The notes under the pieces: model-generated | The model's database searches: none | What the model was told of the DNA's origin: nothing | What the model saw: only the letters and a program-made list of their open reading frames with translations | NCBI GenBank assembly: GCA_010365215.1 | Contig: JAAFGT010000028.1 | Coordinates: 1 to 43,737, forward strand | Length of the DNA: 43,737 nt | Direction: 5' to 3' | DNA from: Acidipila sp. | Lineage (GTDB): Bacteria; Acidobacteriota; Terriglobia; Acidiferrales; UBA7541 | Part shown: piece after piece, positions 4,548 through 34,750 of the stretch | Layout of the letters: every line of letters starts with the position of its first letter | Position numbering within the stretch: the stretch's first letter is position 1 | Translations under genes and position numbers: made by a program

Positions 4548-4943
4548 CTAAGCGCCGCTTGCCTTGATAAACCGTTTGGTATCCACGATGGCGCGGCCGA
4601 CGCGTCCGCGGCCCAGCACCACGTTGCCGTGCCGCGCTTCCACCTCAAAATAGAGGAAGCGTCCGTCGATTTTATCGAGTCGCGCCCAAGCGGTGACCGT
4701 TGAACCTTGCGGACAGGATTTCAGGTGGTCGATCTCGATGCGCGTCCCCAGGGTCATCATGCCTTCCGGTAGAGCGCATTCGACAGCGCGCGCCGCGGCA
4801 ATTTCCATCATTGCGATCATCGATGGCGTGGAAAGAATCGCGGGCAGGCTGGGGTTGTAGTGCGCGATGGTCCACTCGAACGGCACGACTTTTTCGAAGG
4901 TGGCTTCAAGACCGGAAGCAAGGGGGAGCTGCGGACTGCTCAA
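4548..4943 (-). CDS. FlK-like hotdog-fold acyl-CoA thioesterase
   Basis: 131 residues from a TTG start. The open frame extends to 5039, but that part overlaps the upstream flavoprotein gene. I choose TTG 4943 because it forms a TTGA overlap with that gene's stop (4940-4943), has GGAG 8 bases before it, and gives the family length. With this start, Thr39, Glu47 and His73 stand at the same spacing as the Thr42/Glu50/His76 triad of fluoroacetyl-CoA thioesterase FlK (constant offset of 3), which supports both start and family. The C-terminal half has the usual hotdog strands (GSTVTAWARL, FLYFEVEARHG). It probably hydrolyses a short acyl-CoA made or handled by the operon; the true substrate is unknown. 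Confidence 0.82.
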   Translation of the reverse strand: MSSPQLPLASGLEATFEKVVPFEWTIAHYNPSLPAILSTPSMIAMMEIAAARAVECALPEGMMTLGTRIEIDHLKSCPQGSTVTAWARLDKIDGRFLYFEVEARHGNVVLGRGRVGRAIVDTKRFIKASGA

Positions 4944-6124
4944 CGCAGCGTCTCCGACGCATTGGAAGGGCCCACGGGCACGCCGGCGGATAGAAAGCTC
5001 GCCAGAATTTCCGAGCAGGTCAGGCCCAGCGAAGACCACAGCCGCCTTTTCAGGCCGCGGTAATCCTGCGAGCCGCTGAAGAGGTCGCGCATCAACGCGC
5101 AGAACGTGGGGCTGCGGCGGATAAACTGAATCATCCGGGTGGTGACCGCGTCTCCCAGAAAATTGCCCGCAAAAAGCCGCCGCGCGATGCGTACTCCGAT
5201 TTCAAAATCAGCGGCAAATTCGCTGCGCACCCGCGCCGGATATTCTGACGGGCAGCCCTCTGCCAGCGAATCTGCCAGCAGGTGGCCGGAGCGCAACGCG
5301 TAATGCAGACCTTCGCCGGTCAACGGGTCCACCCAGGCTGCGGCATCGCCCACCAATGCCCAATTGGCGCCCATCACCTTGCGCCGGCGCAGAGTATCCG
5401 GACTCGGCGACGGCAGCACATGGCTATAGAAGCGCGCGCCTGACGTAGAGATGTTTTCCTCTTCCATAAAACGATGCAGATGATTTTTCATCACCAGCGT
5501 GGCGCCCGAGGAGAGCCGGCCGCAGATTCCTACCGAGAGATGGTCGGAGCGCGGAAACGACCAGAGATAGCCTTCAAATTTGGGCAGGAATTTTATGGTG
5601 ATGCTCTCCGCCGTCCTGGGAACAAAGTAACCCATGGTCTGTTCGAGATCTGCCGCCTTCAGCGGAGTTGTCCCCGGCAAAAGCGGATTGCGGGCGCCCG
5701 CCGCCAATACCACGAAATCCGCCGAATGTTCCCGGCCCGCGGCGGTCAACCGGATGCGTGCCAGGGAAGTATCGACCTGGGTCACTCGAGACTGCTCGAC
5801 GCGGCAGCCGGCCGCCGTGGCGCGGTCGAGCAACAGCCCGTTGAGCACCGCCCGGGAATAGATGGCGATGGGATGGTCGAGACGCAGCATGGCCCGCCGG
5901 CCGCCGGACGAAATCAGCTCGCATGCGCGAATGAGTTTTTTGGGGTGCGGGCCGTCAAGCAGGAATGGATAGGCGACCAGGGCCTTGTGCGTCAGCCCGC
6001 CGCCGCAGGGTTTTTCCCAAGCCAGGTGCTCGTCGAAAATGCTCACCTGGAAACCGGAGGATGCCAGGCGCTCTCCGCAGAGGGCGCCGGCAGGGCCTCC
6101 ACCGACGATGGCGATCTCTCTCAT
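4940..6124 (-). CDS. Geranylgeranyl-reductase-family FAD-dependent oxidoreductase
   Basis: 394 residues. The N-terminus has the dinucleotide-binding fold (IAIVGGGPAGALCGERLA, acidic end FDE at about 32) and the PCGGGLT segment typical of the geranylgeranyl reductase/halogenase-like flavoproteins. A second FAD motif (WALVGDAAAWVDPLTGEGL) lies near residues 250-270. Members reduce isoprenoid chains or oxidise aromatic and lipid substrates (family knowledge). No chlorophyll or archaeal lipid genes are nearby, so the substrate cannot be named. It lies between the membrane hydrolase (33-base gap) and the thioesterase (4-base overlap), which suggests a shared lipid or acyl pathway. Confidence 0.85.
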   Translation of the reverse strand: MREIAIVGGGPAGALCGERLASSGFQVSIFDEHLAWEKPCGGGLTHKALVAYPFLLDGPHPKKLIRACELISSGGRRAMLRLDHPIAIYSRAVLNGLLLDRATAAGCRVEQSRVTQVDTSLARIRLTAAGREHSADFVVLAAGARNPLLPGTTPLKAADLEQTMGYFVPRTAESITIKFLPKFEGYLWSFPRSDHLSVGICGRLSSGATLVMKNHLHRFMEEENISTSGARFYSHVLPSPSPDTLRRRKVMGANWALVGDAAAWVDPLTGEGLHYALRSGHLLADSLAEGCPSEYPARVRSEFAADFEIGVRIARRLFAGNFLGDAVTTRMIQFIRRSPTFCALMRDLFSGSQDYRGLKRRLWSSLGLTCSEILASFLSAGVPVGPSNASETLR

Positions 6125-29070: not shown

Positions 29071-29766
29071 GTGCTGGTCCTGGCCATCGATACCGCTTCT
29101 CCGCATGGCAGTGTCGCCGCGCTGCGGGACGGTGAACTGCTCGATGTAGTTTCCAATGATGCGGGCGACACCCATTCCCTGCGGTTCTTTGGGCAGATGG
29201 AGAAGTTACTTCGCGAACAGAACCTGGCTATGCCGCAGTTCGACGTCTATGCCGTCAACGCCGGCCCTGGTTCTTTCACCGGCGTGCGCGTTGGATTGAC
29301 CGCTGTAAAGGCCTGGGCCGAAGTTTACGGCAAACCGGTAGCTGCGCTGAGCGGGCTCGAGGCGGTGGCTGTTCAGGCGCCGGCCACTGCGCGTCTGCTT
29401 GCTGCCGTCACCGATGCGCGGCGCGGCCAGCTCTACGCCGGACTCTACCAACGTGAAGGCGGCATATTGCGGCCCCGCGGCGAAGACACCGTAATGGCGC
29501 CCGCTGACTGCTTTGCATACCTCGCCGGCCAGGCTCGCGGTGAAGGTATCTGCTTTGCGACCCCCGCGCTGGATTGGCTGGCGCCGTTGCTTGCTGCTTC
29601 CCAGTTTCACGACGCCCAGGTTGTCGCCGTCTCCGAGGTTCTCGCTCCGTCCATCGGGCGCCTCGGCCTGGAACGCGCGCTGGCCGGGGAGACGCTGGAT
29701 GCACTCAGTCTCGACGCGCACTATGTGCGCTGCAGCGATGCCGAAGTTTTTGGTAAAGCGAAGTGA
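29071..29766 (+). CDS. tsaB: tRNA threonylcarbamoyladenosine biosynthesis protein TsaB
   Basis: 231 residues from GTG 29071. Non-catalytic ASKHA partner that dimerises with TsaD to make t6A at A37 of ANN-reading tRNAs (family knowledge). LVLAIDTASPHGSVA at the start, NAGPGSFTGVRVGLTAVKA near 72, and the YAGLY strand. The metal site of TsaD is absent, as expected. The stop overlaps the next start by 4 bases (GTGA), the common tsaB-rimI pairing. Confidence 0.95.
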   Translation: MLVLAIDTASPHGSVAALRDGELLDVVSNDAGDTHSLRFFGQMEKLLREQNLAMPQFDVYAVNAGPGSFTGVRVGLTAVKAWAEVYGKPVAALSGLEAVAVQAPATARLLAAVTDARRGQLYAGLYQREGGILRPRGEDTVMAPADCFAYLAGQARGEGICFATPALDWLAPLLAASQFHDAQVVAVSEVLAPSIGRLGLERALAGETLDALSLDAHYVRCSDAEVFGKAK

Positions 29767-30221
29767 ATTCTCCGGCTGTGCGAATTGTAGCGCGAAGGAT
29801 CACTCCCGCCGACGTTCCGGCTGTGCTGGCTCTTCAGGCGCGTTCCTCAGAGGCCTCGCAATGGTCCGCCGAGGGATGTACGCGCGCTGCCGCAGGCGAA
29901 TATCCGGCGTGGGTGGCAGGTGTGGGGGATGGCATACACGGTTTTTTGGTTATGCGCACCGCGGCCGATGAGTCCGAGATACTTAACCTGGCCGTGGAGC
30001 CGGAACGCCGCAGGCAGGGAATTGCTTCCGCGCTTTTGGCGGCAGCGCTTGTGGCTGCTCGCGCGGCCGGTGCCAAGAGCGTTTACCTGGAAGTGCGTGA
30101 GTCCAACGCGGTGGCGATCGCGTTTTACCGGAGCAGTGGTTTCGAACCCACCGGCCGGCGCGCGCGCTACTACCAAGACCCACCCGAAGCAGCCGTGGTG
30201 ATGAGCCAGGCGCTTTTTTAG
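29763..30221 (+). CDS. rimI: RimI-like GNAT N-acetyltransferase
   Basis: 152 residues from GTG 29763, inside the tsaB stop. Acetyl-CoA-binding core: LNLAVEPERRRQGIASALL (motif A, R-R-x-G-I/A), then YLEVRESNAVAIAFYRSSGFEPTGRRARYY. It is predicted to acetylate the N-terminus of ribosomal protein S18 or others (family knowledge); the target is inferred from the tsaB neighbourhood only. 150 bases of non-coding DNA follow. Confidence 0.88.
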   Translation: MNSPAVRIVARRITPADVPAVLALQARSSEASQWSAEGCTRAAAGEYPAWVAGVGDGIHGFLVMRTAADESEILNLAVEPERRRQGIASALLAAALVAARAAGAKSVYLEVRESNAVAIAFYRSSGFEPTGRRARYYQDPPEAAVVMSQALF

Positions 30222-30371: not shown

Positions 30372-30611
30372 ATGTCCACCTCGCCCGAGGAACTCCGCGC
30401 ACACCTGCTGGCCAGCAATGATGAGTACCAGCGCCTGGCCAGGGAACACTCGCAGTATGAAATGCAGCTCGAGCAACTGGTCAACTCCCCGTACTTCAAC
30501 TCCGAAGACCTGATTCTTCAAATAGAGCTCAAAAAAATGAAATTGCGGCTGAAGGATCAGATGGAACGCATCGTCCTACGACATCAGAAGAATCATTCGG
30601 TTCGGGTGTAA
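30372..30611 (+). CDS. YdcH/DUF465-family small coiled-coil protein
   Basis: 79 residues from ATG 30372 (GGAGGG 6 bases upstream); the frame is open from 30303, but the family begins here. Helical throughout: ELRAHLLASNDEYQRLAREH, QYEMQLEQLVNSPYF, then LQIELKKMKLRLKDQMERI, the characteristic two-helix DUF465 pattern. The function is unknown in the family. It is short, acidic/basic mixed and probably cytoplasmic. Independent of its neighbours by spacing. Confidence 0.85.
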   Translation: MSTSPEELRAHLLASNDEYQRLAREHSQYEMQLEQLVNSPYFNSEDLILQIELKKMKLRLKDQMERIVLRHQKNHSVRV

Positions 30612-30665: not shown

Positions 30666-31295
30666 GTGCCCTCTCGATGCGCGATGGTTTCTGACGGTTA
30701 CAAGTTTGCCGCCCCGCCGCTTGTGCTTGGCCTTCTGGCGTTGGTGCCCGGTTGGCACTGGCTGGCCGGCATACTGCTGTTCCTGGGAATTTTTGTACTC
30801 TACTTTTTTCGCGATCCCGATCGAGTGGCCCCTGCTTCTCCGGACGCGGTGGTTTCACCCGCCGACGGCCGCGTAGTGGAAATCGTTGAGGAATCCCTGG
30901 AGGGCGCGCCCGGACGCCGCATCAGCATTTTCCTTTCCGTCTGGGACGTTCACGTGAACCGCTCGCCGGTGGCCGGCACCATCCGTCGCGTGGACTACAA
31001 GCCGGGAAAGTTCTATGCCGCACTGCGCGCTCGCGCATCGCTAGAAAACGAACAGAACATCATTCGCGTTTCCACTCCGCACGGAGACATGGTCTTCAAA
31101 CAAATTGCCGGTTGGATCGCGCGCCGCGTGCTCTGCTGGAAGGCAGTGGGTGACACGGTTCAGCTTGGCGAGCGTATCGGCATGATACGCTTCGGCTCGC
31201 GCACGGATGTGTGGCTCCCGCTTGCCGCCGAGATTGTCGTCAAGCGCGGCGACAGTGTGCGCGGCGGGGTTACCTTACTGGCGAGATGGAAATGA
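30666..31295 (+). CDS. psd: Phosphatidylserine decarboxylase (short form)
   Basis: 209 residues from GTG 30666. Converts phosphatidylserine to phosphatidylethanolamine with a pyruvoyl cofactor made by self-cleavage (family knowledge). Two N-terminal hydrophobic stretches (LVLGLLALVPGW, ILLFLGIFVLYFF) before FRDPDR anchor it to the membrane. SPADGRV and the DVHVNRSP motif are present. The cleavage site is Gly177-Ser178 in IRFGSR. This is the about 210-residue Psd class, without the long N-terminal region of E. coli Psd. The stop overlaps the pssA start (ATGA), placing both steps of PE synthesis in one operon. Confidence 0.93.
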   Translation: MPSRCAMVSDGYKFAAPPLVLGLLALVPGWHWLAGILLFLGIFVLYFFRDPDRVAPASPDAVVSPADGRVVEIVEESLEGAPGRRISIFLSVWDVHVNRSPVAGTIRRVDYKPGKFYAALRARASLENEQNIIRVSTPHGDMVFKQIAGWIARRVLCWKAVGDTVQLGERIGMIRFGSRTDVWLPLAAEIVVKRGDSVRGGVTLLARWK

Positions 31296-32089
31296 AAAAT
31301 TATCCGTCATCGAAAGGTCTGGGACTGCGCCGTGGCGTCTACCTGCTGCCCAGCCTGTTGACTGTGGGCAATCTGCTGTGCGGTTACTACGCCATCTTCG
31401 TCACCTACAAAGGCGGAGCTCGGGAGTTTGACCACGCCGCAATTGCCATCGGTATTGCCAGTCTGTTCGACGCGCTCGACGGCCGCGTAGCGCGCGTCAC
31501 CGGCTCCAATTCCGAATTCGGCAAACAACTCGACTCGCTGGCCGACATCATCAGTTTTGGCGTAGCTCCCGCGTTCCTGGCCTACGTGTGGGGGCTGCAG
31601 ACCATTACCCAGAGCGTGGGACTGCCGCATCACACCGTGCAGATCGGCTGGCTGGTGACGCTCGGATTCGTGATCTGCTGCGCCTGGAGGCTGGCGCGAT
31701 TCAATATTCAGGGCATGATGCCGGCTTCCGGGATGCGTTACTTCGTGGGTATGCCGTGCCCCGCCGCGGCGGCCCAGGTCGCTGCTGTCGTGCACTTTGA
31801 AAAAACGCCTCTGGACGACTGGCGCTGGGCATTCGTCTGGCTGGTGGTCATCGCTATTCTTGCGGCCCTGATGGTTAGCCGGCTCCGCTTCTACAGCTTT
31901 AAGGACCTGGGCTGGCAGATGCCGCAGCCTTCGCTGGTGGTAGTTCTGATGGCTCTATTTATCGGCGCCATCGTGTGGTATTCGGAAGAGGTGCTTCTGC
32001 TGATCGCCACGCTCTACACCCTGTCCGGGCTGGTGCTCTGGCTGACTCGTGCTGCGCGCCGCCGGCGTCCCGCTGCGCGCACCGCCTGA
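31292..32089 (+). CDS. pssA: CDP-diacylglycerol--serine O-phosphatidyltransferase
   Basis: 265 residues from ATG 31292. The frame opens at 31211 inside psd, but ATGA at 31292-31295 marks the likely start; ATG 31286 is a second choice. CDP-alcohol phosphatidyltransferase motif: FDALDGRVARVTGSNSEFGK then LDSLAD, with all Asp residues. About seven membrane helices follow (LTVGNLLCGYYAIF, LVTLGFVICCAW, then LVVVLMALFIGAIVW and others). It makes the phosphatidylserine that Psd decarboxylates. The C-terminus is Arg-rich. Confidence 0.94.
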   Translation: MKNYPSSKGLGLRRGVYLLPSLLTVGNLLCGYYAIFVTYKGGAREFDHAAIAIGIASLFDALDGRVARVTGSNSEFGKQLDSLADIISFGVAPAFLAYVWGLQTITQSVGLPHHTVQIGWLVTLGFVICCAWRLARFNIQGMMPASGMRYFVGMPCPAAAAQVAAVVHFEKTPLDDWRWAFVWLVVIAILAALMVSRLRFYSFKDLGWQMPQPSLVVVLMALFIGAIVWYSEEVLLLIATLYTLSGLVLWLTRAARRRRPAARTA

Positions 32090-32098
32090 GTCCTTCGA

Positions 32099-33121
32099 AT
32101 GCCTCCTTTAAACGGCCAGCCACTCCGCATCGGTATTGTCGGAGCATCCACTCTCCGCGGTAAAGAGATCGCGCAGATTCTCGACGAGCGCCCCCTGCCC
32201 GTTCCCGTCGCCGGCATCCGTCTTTTCGATGACCTCAGCCTGGCAGGAACGCTGACCGTGGCGGCGGGTGAGCCGGTGGTGGTGCAGACTCTGAATGAAG
32301 ACAGCCTGCGCGGATTGCACCTGGTCTTTTTCGCCTGCGATGAATCCTTCAGCGCGATCCATTGGGCCGCCGCCCAGGCCGCAGGCGCGGTGGTTATTGA
32401 TCTATCCGGCGCTGTGGCCACACTCGATTCAGCCGCGATTTCCATCCCCACCCTCAACGGCGCCCATTCAGAATCGAGCTTGTCTTCCGCTAAGCTGTTT
32501 TACTCCCCGGGCGCTGCGACCATTGTTGCGTGCACGCTAGCCCAAGGACTTCGCGAGCTGCGCGCCCGGCGTATCGCAGCGGTATTTTTTCAGCCGGTCT
32601 CCGAGCTGGGATTGGCAGGAATTGAGGAGCTGGAGAGCCAGACGGCAAAGCTGCTTTCGTTCCAGCCCTTTTCGCGCGAGGTGTTTGACACGCAAGTGGC
32701 TTTCAATCTGCTGGATCACTACGGACAATTGAGCCGCGCGCGTCTGGAGGATGTCCGCAACGCTACCGCGCGTGATGTGCGCGCCTTTTTGCGCGGCGCG
32801 CAGCCGCTCCCCGCCGTGCAGGTGGTTCATGCGCCGGTATTTTATTCACTGGCGTTCAGTATTTTCGTCGAGCTCCAACAGGCCGGCACTCCCGAGGCGC
32901 TGGGCCGGGCGCTCGCTGCGGTTGGAGTGAGCATCCCCTCGGCGGAGGATCCGCCGACCACTAATCTGACTGTAGCCGGTTCTCATGGCGTGACCATCGG
33001 TTCCATTCGGCGCGATCCCAATGTCGACTCGGGCTATTGGCTGTGGGGCGCGGTGGACAACATCCGCCTGGCCGCCGATAATGCCGTGCGCATCGCGGAG
33101 AAAATCATTGAACGTATCTGA
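32099..33121 (+). CDS. Aspartate-semialdehyde dehydrogenase-like protein lacking catalytic residues (USG-1-like)
   Basis: 340 residues. The N-terminal Rossmann domain (RIGIVGASTLRGKEIAQIL) and the C-terminal dimerisation domain of ASADH are recognisable. Where active enzymes have NPNC, this protein reads SPGA (136-139), so the nucleophilic Cys is Ala139. Where they have a G-H-S/T catalytic His after RxPVF, it reads HAPVFYSL, with Leu251 at the His position and no Arg. E. coli USG-1 is a known non-catalytic paralogue; this looks like the same kind. It lies between pssA and lptE with gaps of 9 and 7 bases. A structural or regulatory role is inference; it should not be called Asd. Confidence 0.8.
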   Translation: MPPLNGQPLRIGIVGASTLRGKEIAQILDERPLPVPVAGIRLFDDLSLAGTLTVAAGEPVVVQTLNEDSLRGLHLVFFACDESFSAIHWAAAQAAGAVVIDLSGAVATLDSAAISIPTLNGAHSESSLSSAKLFYSPGAATIVACTLAQGLRELRARRIAAVFFQPVSELGLAGIEELESQTAKLLSFQPFSREVFDTQVAFNLLDHYGQLSRARLEDVRNATARDVRAFLRGAQPLPAVQVVHAPVFYSLAFSIFVELQQAGTPEALGRALAAVGVSIPSAEDPPTTNLTVAGSHGVTIGSIRRDPNVDSGYWLWGAVDNIRLAADNAVRIAEKIIERI

Positions 33122-33128
33122 GCGAGCC

Positions 33129-33158
33129 ATGCGTGCAAGCTTCATGCGTGCAAGGTTC
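33129..33158 (+). repeat. 15-bp tandem duplication at the lptE start
   Basis: atgcgtgcaagcttc is followed by atgcgtgcaaggttc (14 of 15 identical), giving MRASF-MRARF and two in-frame ATG starts. Either ATG could be used. Confidence 0.75.
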
Positions 33159-33680
33159 GCTGCATCTGGCGCTTGTTGGCTCGTGGTGTTTCTCTGTCTC
33201 GCAGGATCAGCCTGCGGCTATCACGTCGCTGGGCGCGGCAACGCTTTGCCGGCGGAGTGGAAATCCATCGCCGTTCCCGCGCTGACCAACCGCACTACGA
33301 CATATCGTATCGAGCAGCGCCTTACCGAGGCTGTAGTTCACGAGCTGCTCGCTCGCACTCATTACCGCGTTGTTGCCGAAGAGAAGTCCGCGGATGCCGT
33401 TCTTCGCGGCGAAGTCACTTCCATTGAAAGCAGCGCCTTGCTGTTTGATACGGTCACCAATCGCGCCACGACCATGCTGGTGAACGTGCGGCTCTCGGTG
33501 AGACTGGTAGACTCGGCCTCGCAGAAAATCGTCTACGAAAATAGCGATTTTCTTTTCCGAGAGGAGTACGACATCTCCACCGACATTCCCAGCTTCTTTG
33601 AAGAGCAGGGCCCTGCGCTCGACCGGTTGTCACGCGATTTTGCCGGCGCGCTGGTCTCCACCCTGCTGGAGAACTTCTAA
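33129..33680 (+). CDS. lptE: LPS-assembly lipoprotein LptE
   Basis: 183 residues from ATG 33129; the longer frame from 33021 lies inside the previous gene. Lipoprotein signal: MRASFMRARFAAS, hydrophobic CWLVVFLCLA, lipobox AGSAC, then GYHVAGRG, the typical LptE start. The body has SIAVPALTNRTTTYRIEQRLTEAV and IVYENSDFLFREEYDI, matching the family's alpha/beta fold. It would sit in the outer-membrane inner leaflet and plug LptD, the LPS translocon (family knowledge); lptD is not in this window. The stop overlaps holA (TAATG), as in many genomes. Confidence 0.87.
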   Translation: MRASFMRARFAASGACWLVVFLCLAGSACGYHVAGRGNALPAEWKSIAVPALTNRTTTYRIEQRLTEAVVHELLARTHYRVVAEEKSADAVLRGEVTSIESSALLFDTVTNRATTMLVNVRLSVRLVDSASQKIVYENSDFLFREEYDISTDIPSFFEEQGPALDRLSRDFAGALVSTLLENF

Positions 33681-34750
33681 TGCCGGAGCTCGAGCTTTCC
33701 CGTTTGCTGGCGCAGCTCGCAAAAAACACGCCGCCGGTGATCGTCCTTCTGGGCGAGGACTCTTACCTGCGCGATGCCTGCCGCAAACGCATCATCGAGG
33801 AAAACGTCCCGGTGGCGGCGCGTCTGTGGGCCGTGAACCGCTATTCCTTGCGCGACCAGACACTTGAGGAGATTCTTCAGCACGCGCAGACCGTGCCTAT
33901 GCTTGCGTCCCGCCAGGTGATTCTTATCGCCGACGCCGAGCGCCTGGAAAAGCTTCCGGAGGATTCGCGCGAGAAGGCGGTGGCCGATCTCACCGCGTAT
34001 CTCGCCGATCCTGCTCCGTTCACCGTGCTGGTTCTCGAAGCCGGCAAACTCGACGAACGCATGAAGCTGACGAAAGTGCTGCGTGAGAAAGCTGCCACCG
34101 TCCGTGTGAGCATGGATGACGTAAATACGAGCAAAAAAATCGAGTTTGCCGCGACTCTGGCGGGGCAGATGGCGGCAGATTCGGGCGTTTCCATCGATCC
34201 CGAGGCCGCCGAGCAGCTTGCCGATTGTCTTGATGGGGCCCTCGCTCAAATTCGCACTGAGGTCGAAAAGCTTGCTGTTTGGGTTGGAGCATCCGGAACA
34301 ATTAAAATCGCCGATGTGCAGGCTCTGGTGGTTTCCGCGAAGAAGTATTCCGTCTGGCAGCTTGCCGAGCTGCTGGTGTCCGGCGAACGTTCCCGTGCAC
34401 TTTTATTTCTCGATAGCGTGCTGCGCGACGGCGAGGAGCCGGCCGGTATTGTCGGCGCTCTGGCGTGGATGTACCGCAAGCTGATCGAGGCTCAGGAGTT
34501 GCCGCCTCAGACCAACAAATTTCAGGCCGCCGGGCGCCTGCGCATGCGCCCCGATACGGCAGAGCTTGCCATCCGCCAGTCGCGAGCCATTCCGCGGTGG
34601 CGCCTTTTAGCCGGGATTGAGGCGCTCTGCGGCGCTGACGACACTCTCAAGTCCGGACGCGCGGCCAACCCCAGAGCGGTGATGGAGTTTCTGGTCATGG
34701 GCCTGACGGCTACGTCCGCAGCCAAGCCTCGGCCCGGAACTTCGAGTTGA
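33680..34750 (+). CDS. holA: DNA polymerase III subunit delta
   Basis: 356 residues. Clamp-loader subunit that opens the beta clamp (family knowledge). AAA-like fold without a functional Walker A: VIVLLGEDSYLRDACRKRII near 16, then VPMLASRQVILIADAERL near 72, the helical lid and the C-terminal collar domain (YSVWQLAELLVSGERSRAL, IVGALAWMYRKLIEAQ). It shares one base with the lptE stop. Last gene of the psd operon; 262 bases without a gene follow. Confidence 0.93.
   Translation: MPELELSRLLAQLAKNTPPVIVLLGEDSYLRDACRKRIIEENVPVAARLWAVNRYSLRDQTLEEILQHAQTVPMLASRQVILIADAERLEKLPEDSREKAVADLTAYLADPAPFTVLVLEAGKLDERMKLTKVLREKAATVRVSMDDVNTSKKIEFAATLAGQMAADSGVSIDPEAAEQLADCLDGALAQIRTEVEKLAVWVGASGTIKIADVQALVVSAKKYSVWQLAELLVSGERSRALLFLDSVLRDGEEPAGIVGALAWMYRKLIEAQELPPQTNKFQAAGRLRMRPDTAELAIRQSRAIPRWRLLAGIEALCGADDTLKSGRAANPRAVMEFLVMGLTATSAAKPRPGTSS

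Follow-up and report, generated by a model that had tools for sequence, protein, structure and literature searches.

The window, the whole stretch of DNA analysed here, comprises 43,737 nucleotides of contig JAAFGT010000028.1 from an Acidipila sp. assembly (GCA_010365215.1), whose 91 contigs total 4.1 Mb. One of its gene clusters has the order tsaB, rimI, DUF465, psd, pssA, asdL, lptE, holA. The name asdL is used here for a gene whose product has the aspartate-semialdehyde dehydrogenase (Asd, or ASADH) fold and lacks the ASADH active site. The genes of the cluster and the altered motifs within asdL are as follows.

29071–30221, plus strand: tsaB-like and rimI-like genes, recurrent upstream neighbours (PF00814, PF00583)
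30372–30611, plus strand: DUF465 small protein, recurrent upstream neighbour (PF04325)
30666–31295, plus strand: psd, phosphatidylserine decarboxylase (PF02666; NF003678, 226.2 bits, cut-off 225)
31292–32089, plus strand: pssA, CDP-diacylglycerol-serine O-phosphatidyltransferase (PF01066; TIGR00473, 116.3 bits, cut-off 107)
32099–33121, plus strand: asdL, 340 aa Asd-fold protein without the ASADH active site (open reading frame, translation, Pfam, AlphaFold2 model, PDB matches)
32141–32161, plus strand: degenerate NADP G-G-G motif of AsdL, G15-A-S-T18-L-R-G21, with Thr for the middle Gly (alignment)
32504–32515, plus strand: S136-P137-G138-A139 of AsdL replacing the NPNC catalytic loop, with Ala139 at Cys135 (alignment with E. 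coli Asd, Usg and relatives)
32603–32605, plus strand: Glu169 of AsdL at ASADH Gly166 of the T-QA-SG-G motif (alignment)
32828–32851, plus strand: H244...Y249-S-L251 of AsdL replacing Arg267...Arg272-Cys-His274 (alignment)
33129–33680, plus strand: lptE-like gene (PF04390, scanned from 33117; start read from the sequence)
33680–34750, plus strand: holA, DNA polymerase III delta subunit (PF06144; TIGR01128, 190.6 bits, cut-off 80)

The asdL gene starts 9 nt behind pssA and ends 7 nt ahead of the lptE-like gene, between the two genes where a sequence-only reading of the locus had placed it. The lptE-like gene has no NCBIfam match at 1e-8. The asdL frame is intact, with an ATG start, 340 codons for amino acids, and a TGA stop. 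Its product belongs to the ASADH superfamily by both Pfam domains, Semialdhyde_dh (48.4 bits) and Semialdhyde_dhC (56.4 bits), each with a gathering cut-off of 26. The AlphaFold2 model, built on a 42-row alignment, has a mean pLDDT of 87.5 and a pTM of 0.88, and falls below a pLDDT of 50 at residues 198–200. Its whole-chain matches are ASADH structures, with Foldseek as well as with VIA-align. The top VIA-align match by Z is 2hjs, the P. aeruginosa USG-1 homologue (Z 37.2, rmsd 2.2 Å, 323 residues), which is also the top PDB match by sequence (E 7.2e-28), and the true ASADH 2gz1_A reaches Z 37.1 (rmsd 2.2 Å, 320 residues). The domain architecture of ASADH is retained, and so is the fold, as the sequence-only reading had claimed.

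The active site is another matter. Residues were mapped on one MAFFT alignment of 179 rows. Relative to E. coli Asd, the catalytic Cys135 of the NPNC loop is Ala139 and the acid-base His274 is Leu251. The residues to which PMC3276109 gives substrate and phosphate roles, Arg267, Glu241, Lys244, and Arg102, are replaced by His244, Val219, Ala222, and Ala107, respectively. Arg272, nearer to His274 than Arg267, is Tyr249. The available part of PMC9385607 names two ASADH motifs, G-G-G and T-QA-SG-G, and AsdL deviates from both. The middle Gly of the NADP motif (Gly11) is Thr18, so that G15-T18-G21 stands for G-G-G, and in the second motif Gln165 is kept while Gly166 is Glu169, which gives SE-G for SG-G. 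The SPGA loop, the Leu at the His position, and the loss of a neighbouring Arg had all been noticed before, and the alignment agrees on each; the changes at Gly11, Arg102, Glu241, Lys244, and Gly166 are additional, and so is the finding that the family is conserved in other Acidobacteriota.

In the available portion of a mutational study of H. influenzae ASADH (PMC3276109), single substitutions at the Cys, the His, two Arg, the Glu, and the Lys leave <0.01% to 3.3% activity, and the mutant R267L has 9.5%. When the mutant table in that portion is compared with the alignment, window AsdL lacks all six residues whose mutation cripples the enzyme. The earlier observation of a lost active site is therefore, on this alignment, right but understated. 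That AsdL is still an active ASADH whose catalytic Cys has moved has next to no probability, because Cys145, though close to the loop, lies six residues past the catalytic column, that column holds Cys in just 22 of 161 relatives, and the Arg, Glu, Lys, and His partners of the catalytic Cys are lost as well. No column from 128 to 152 has Cys in more than 22/161 relatives. The shifted alignment with Cys145 in the active site and an intact His, which the sequence-only reading had named as its own possible refutation, is therefore rejected.

The source genome has three matches to PF02774, namely an archaeal-type asd, argC, and asdL. The archaeal-type gene scores 442.6 bits against TIGR00978 (cut-off 301.2) and adjoins an aspartokinase-like gene, and argC scores 373.7 bits against TIGR01850 and adjoins an argB-like gene; both neighbours were recognised by eye. 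AsdL is thus not the asd of the genome. A true asd elsewhere had been suggested as a check and is present, and together with the loss of six activity-critical residues (PMC3276109, in the portion available) it gives good support to the earlier statement that AsdL cannot be an ASADH. ArgC (N-acetyl-gamma-glutamyl-phosphate reductase) is of the same superfamily, but AsdL scores 16.8 bits against TIGR01850 (cut-off 233.6), and the genome has its own argC. The asd of this genome (L045) is archaeal-type; other genomes of its class, in families f7 and f8, have bacterial-type asd genes with NPNC (L100, L102, L103), and L100 passes TIGR01296.

Bacterial-type Asd (TIGR01296 / PRK14874; structures 2qz9 and 2gz1) resembles AsdL in its whole-chain fold, both Pfam domains, and similar length, and it shares the conserved Asp101, Glu177, Ser168, and Asp320. 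In contrast, window AsdL lacks Cys135, His274, Arg267, Glu241, Arg102, Lys244, and the middle NADP Gly of that type, has SE-G for SG-G, and is encoded beside psd-pssA. It also misses the ASADH equivalog cut-offs, with 99.9 against 324.2 bits for TIGR01296 and 120.8 against 223 for NF011456. All other NCBIfam cut-offs are missed too, the best score being 151.8 against 284, and the same holds for six relatives (L025, L049, L157, L160, L166, L170). The expectation that automated pipelines would probably mislabel AsdL is thus not shown by these models. Annotation by homology or domain only would assign the protein to lysine/methionine metabolism, very probably in error. By its sequence, AsdL is very probably a descendant of the ASADH superfamily, nearest to bacterial-type Asd and repurposed with a new role.

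Relatives of AsdL were collected in several ways. A protein search with window AsdL matched 53 of 61 genomes (the window genome and 60 relatives). A contig scan with short patterns gave 44 loci, among which were a true Asd from Clostridiales and a record with a Betaproteobacteria label. An AsdL profile search of 297 Acidobacteriota genomes matched 150, some of them through true Asd or weak matches, and left 147 without a match. Loci that were fetched and read as AsdL come from 98/297 genomes, a lower bound, as the fetched loci cover part of the 150 matched genomes. The set counted below holds 161 AsdL sequences after removal of near-copies (six rows at least 97% identical to a kept row) and of fragments shorter than 270–280 aa. 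The counts also exclude E. coli Asd and Usg, the asd of the source genome, and nine true-Asd rows. True-Asd rows were told apart by the Cys of NPNC/SPDC, a division against which trees were afterwards compared.

Cys is absent from the catalytic column in all 161 relatives, where Pro (105) and Ala (37) prevail. It is likewise absent in 20 further loci picked for a weak or yet unread match, so that the overall count is 0/181 and the loss is more than a chance event. True Asd rows in the same alignment have the Cys in 10/10, but nine of them were first recognised by that Cys; the later trees agree with the split. Only a few AsdL rows keep Arg267 (6/161), Glu241 (5/161), or Arg102 (5/161), and the His274 column holds His in 67/161. 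The Lys244 column has Lys in 4 and Arg in 102 of the 161 rows. The middle NADP Gly is kept in 1/161 rows, being Ser (101) or Thr (53) in 154/161, and in 10/10 true Asd rows. The Gly166 column, Gly in 10/10 true Asd rows, is Glu in 119 and Asp in 14 AsdL rows. The true Asd rows keep the Cys, both Arg, the Glu, and the Gly in 10/10, and the His in nine.

The most conserved AsdL columns are Phe248 (161/161), followed by Asp101, Glu177, Gln181, Leu186, and Phe202 (98–99%). Asp101, Glu177, Ser168, and Asp320 are among the most conserved polar residues and are common to 10/10 true Asd rows, and Gln181 also occurs in 6/10. Glu58 (94%) and Gln199 (95%) are found in just 3/10 and 4/10 true Asd rows. 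This pattern fits a kept fold and a putative dimer surface, with a few residues of AsdL's own. As read in these alignments, AsdL is a conserved family and clade of Acidobacteriota and not a single odd gene.

A few members of the collection stand out. One AsdL copy (L003 and L090) has a 402 aa frame that matches almost end to end and is about 60 residues longer than in relatives; it was left out of the structure alignment. L011 (CAJCHZ010000089.1), the record labelled Betaproteobacteria, has the full tsaB-rimI-DUF465-psd-pssA-asdL-lptE-holA order and a typical AsdL, and is probably a mislabelled or mis-binned Acidobacteriota contig. A selenocysteine reading of TGA in G005 and G017 was rejected: frames of 334 and 337 aa cover the whole match without an inner stop, and the flagged TGA is therefore the end of the match.

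The AsdL clade is under purifying selection. Among 103 computable pairs of 123 at 72–97% identity, which share rows and are not independent, dN/dS has a median of 0.092 and a maximum of 0.39. Catalytic residues lost, fold kept, and purifying selection are the marks of an ASADH-type pseudoenzyme, and AsdL shows all three in its sequence and model. The lost active site, the absence of the gene in some relatives, and one copy with an in-frame stop could suggest a decaying pseudogene, but the window copy has an intact frame, and this, the clade's conservation among Acidobacteriota, and the low median dN/dS speak so strongly against decay that this explanation is rejected as practically excluded. 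The copy with the stop is L227 (G079; 4790–5800, minus strand), in which the AsdL frame is split by a TGA and still adjoins psd-pssA; either the gene is broken there or the stop is an error of sequencing.

Proteobacteria are already known to have Asd paralogues whose catalytic column is not Cys, the USG-1 (Usg) proteins, and the sequence-only reading had proposed an alignment with them. USG-1 shares the Asd fold without that Cys, and 2hjs is the top PDB match by sequence and by Z, but its Z is tied with that of the true ASADH 2gz1. The Cys column is Ala in 2hjs as it is in window AsdL, and in 2hjs the residue just before it is a Cys. In contrast, the NADP G-G-G motif is intact in Usg and 2hjs, including the middle Gly that AsdL has lost, and E. 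coli usg lies between pdxB and truA while asdL lies beside pssA. E. coli Usg passes NF005957 and NF004224 (683.5 and 289.3 bits), which AsdL misses with 94.9 against 273 and 151.8 against 284. We know of no function assigned to USG-1. In the available part of a paper on the Salmonella usg operon, usg is named a putative aspartate-semialdehyde dehydrogenase (PMC6358828).

In a mixture-model tree of 85 rows, which took in 70 of the 161 AsdL rows, these 70 form one group with support 100/100, away from E. coli Usg and P. aeruginosa USG-1. E. coli Usg and V. cholerae Asd2 are paired there at 81/83 only, and P. aeruginosa USG-1 stands apart. FastTree separates all 161 AsdL rows from 14 others with support 100, and does the same for all 181 rows, with a program warning of long branches. 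Membership in USG-1 is rejected on the separate tree group, with two USG-1 sequences in the trees, and on the two missed cut-offs, and is very unlikely; on these trees USG-1 is a look-alike only. The evidence that AsdL lost the ASADH Cys independently of USG-1 is good but, with two USG-1 rows, not exhaustive. What appears new is a phylum-wide, operon-linked variant that is separate in the trees. No description of the family was found in the open-licence PMC literature, a limit that makes this weak evidence of novelty.

The gene order in relatives was judged by profile matches to frames and not by annotation. Of the 160 loci with room for an upstream gene, 146 have pssA immediately before asdL. 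lptE comes after asdL in 86/158, so the link to lptE that is striking in the window is shared by only part of the relatives. The pssA count missed 14 loci; three of these (L026, L040, L211) show pssA just upstream on inspection, and 11 are without it. In 20 later loci, chosen by sequence match alone, pssA is upstream in 19, and the last one is cut by the contig end; 14 of these 20 AsdL copies are at most 40% identical to the closest kept row. Downstream, some loci have MsbA-like exporters (three were scanned, with 516–584 bits against TIGR02203, below the cut-off of 602), and L161 has lolCE-lolD-like genes that score 354.0 and 277.5 bits, below the cut-offs of 362.45 and 307.75. Other genes after asdL are not envelope genes, such as YicC (L164), an alanine symporter (L185), a peroxiredoxin-like gene (L166), and frames without a Pfam match. 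Among the last kind are frames of about 260–295 aa, such as L161:4068–4850 on the minus strand and those of 275–295 aa in L162, L177, L190, and L097. The L161 frame has a secreted, coiled-coil look by eye and precedes the lolCE-lolD-like genes.

The 11 loci without pssA have DUF465 just upstream in 10 and an ABC exporter-like frame downstream in 7. Together with another two genomes of genus g143, whose asdL loci were outside the fetched set, their genomes make a group of 13: all have a CDP-alcohol transferase, eight have a Psd match, and five have none. Two genomes, G038 (L197) and G043 (L202), have psd-pssA-lptE-holA, in which lptE follows pssA without an intervening gene. These are natural empty sites for asdL, and a more sensitive profile gave only weak partial AsdL matches in both genomes; AsdL is therefore dispensable there. 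Psd is found in 276/297 Acidobacteriota genomes, and many Psd genomes do without an AsdL-profile match (147/297 have none). Because Psd is near-universal, its co-occurrence with AsdL adds no support to a link with lipid synthesis.

The replaced columns of the old active site are not random. Numbered as in window AsdL, the recurrent residues among the 161 rows are His138 (101), Pro139 (105), Glu169 (119), Arg222 (102), Gln244 (113), and His249 (104). The most frequent combination (45/161) is the full His-Pro-Glu-Arg-Gln-His set joined by either His or Tyr at 251. None of these residues is invariant. The 44 rows nearest to window AsdL have mostly Ser138 (27), Ala139 (28), Glu169 (42), Gln244 (29), and Tyr249 (34), and are divided between Arg222 (18) and Ala222 (17). 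Window AsdL reads G-A-E-A-H-Y-L over 138, 139, 169, 222, 244, 249, and 251. As aligned, the nearest relatives of the window protein lack part of the recurring set. A re-specified site was probably present in the phylum and then altered again in these relatives.

The loss of the Cys, Arg, Glu, and NADP Gly, the single tree group, the low dN/dS, and the true asd elsewhere support a role other than ASADH. A link to lipids is supported by the pssA-adjacent order, lptE, the MsbA-like and lolCE-lolD-like neighbours, and the short spacing on both sides of asdL. We tentatively favour, at a little under an even chance, the reading that AsdL is a non-ASADH regulatory or scaffolding partner in phosphatidylethanolamine/envelope-lipid synthesis. 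The scaffold, regulator, or new ligand-binding role that the sequence-only reading had suggested is thus a reasonable possibility. ASADH activity would have been lost early in Acidobacteriota, or AsdL would have entered the phylum already changed, and the protein would then have been kept in a role tied to envelope-lipid synthesis. The lost site and the gene order are observed; beyond them, we infer a protein that still dimerises and whose rebuilt site accommodates either some other small ligand or a partner protein. Such binding may let AsdL regulate or scaffold PssA/Psd, or alternatively balance phosphatidylethanolamine synthesis against lipopolysaccharide and lipoprotein export. In the nearest relatives of the window protein, catalysis is less likely than scaffolding or the binding of a partner, given that the rebuilt pocket is further altered there. 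A simple serine or aspartate sensor reusing the old amino-acid site is unlikely, because the residues at Glu241 and Arg267, which hold the amino acid substrate in ASADH according to the available portion of PMC3276109, are gone. Against the lipid-linked reading stand the 11 loci without pssA, the absence of AsdL from G038 and G043, the split frame of L227, and the non-lipid genes in the cluster. The five AsdL genomes without Psd and the near-universality of Psd speak against a link that is obligate.

A more specific form of the favoured role is rather unlikely. In Acidobacteriota, AsdL could serve phosphatidylethanolamine synthesis as a sensor or an allosteric subunit, with the rebuilt site (His-Pro-Glu-Arg-Gln-His) binding a lipid-pathway metabolite and the dimer relaying the signal to PssA or to the adjoining lipopolysaccharide/lipoprotein export genes. 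If so, AsdL would couple inner-membrane and outer-membrane lipid supply.

It is also possible, if doubtful, that AsdL is a new enzyme whose rebuilt site (His138, Pro139, Glu169, Arg222, Gln244, His249) catalyses another reaction, perhaps on a lipid precursor. The recurrence of these residues in 101–119 of the 161 rows and the nearly invariant Glu58 and Gln199, less common in true Asd, would suit an enzyme. The absence of any invariant residue in the rebuilt pocket speaks against a strict new catalytic mechanism, as do the Ser138/Ala139/Tyr249 of most of the nearest rows and the divergent residues of window AsdL itself. Asp101, Glu177, Ser168, and Asp320 require no new chemistry, being common to all true Asd rows.

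Equally unlikely is a pssA neighbourhood without functional meaning, in which AsdL has an unrelated role and the genes belong to an ancient cluster that is gradually coming apart. The cluster also holds tsaB, rimI, DUF465, and holA, five AsdL genomes lack Psd, and the near-universal Psd does not track AsdL. As tsaB, rimI, and holA are not lipid genes and some downstream genes are not envelope genes, the order could be due in part to long-standing vertical linkage. The pssA-asdL pair, however, persists while the downstream neighbours vary, and it persists even in very diverged copies.

Acidobacteriota are abundant in soils. To our knowledge, the way in which bacteria keep phospholipid and outer-membrane supply in balance is still debated, with few tests made in this phylum. 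For that question AsdL offers one named, conserved, and testable gene. For the ASADH superfamily, it would be a loss of the catalytic Cys that is independent of USG-1 on these trees and is accompanied by a recognisably rebuilt pocket. A further gene of the cluster deserves mention: DUF465 (30372–30611 in the window) precedes psd, or immediately precedes asdL, at many Acidobacteriota loci, and its product may be a partner of AsdL.
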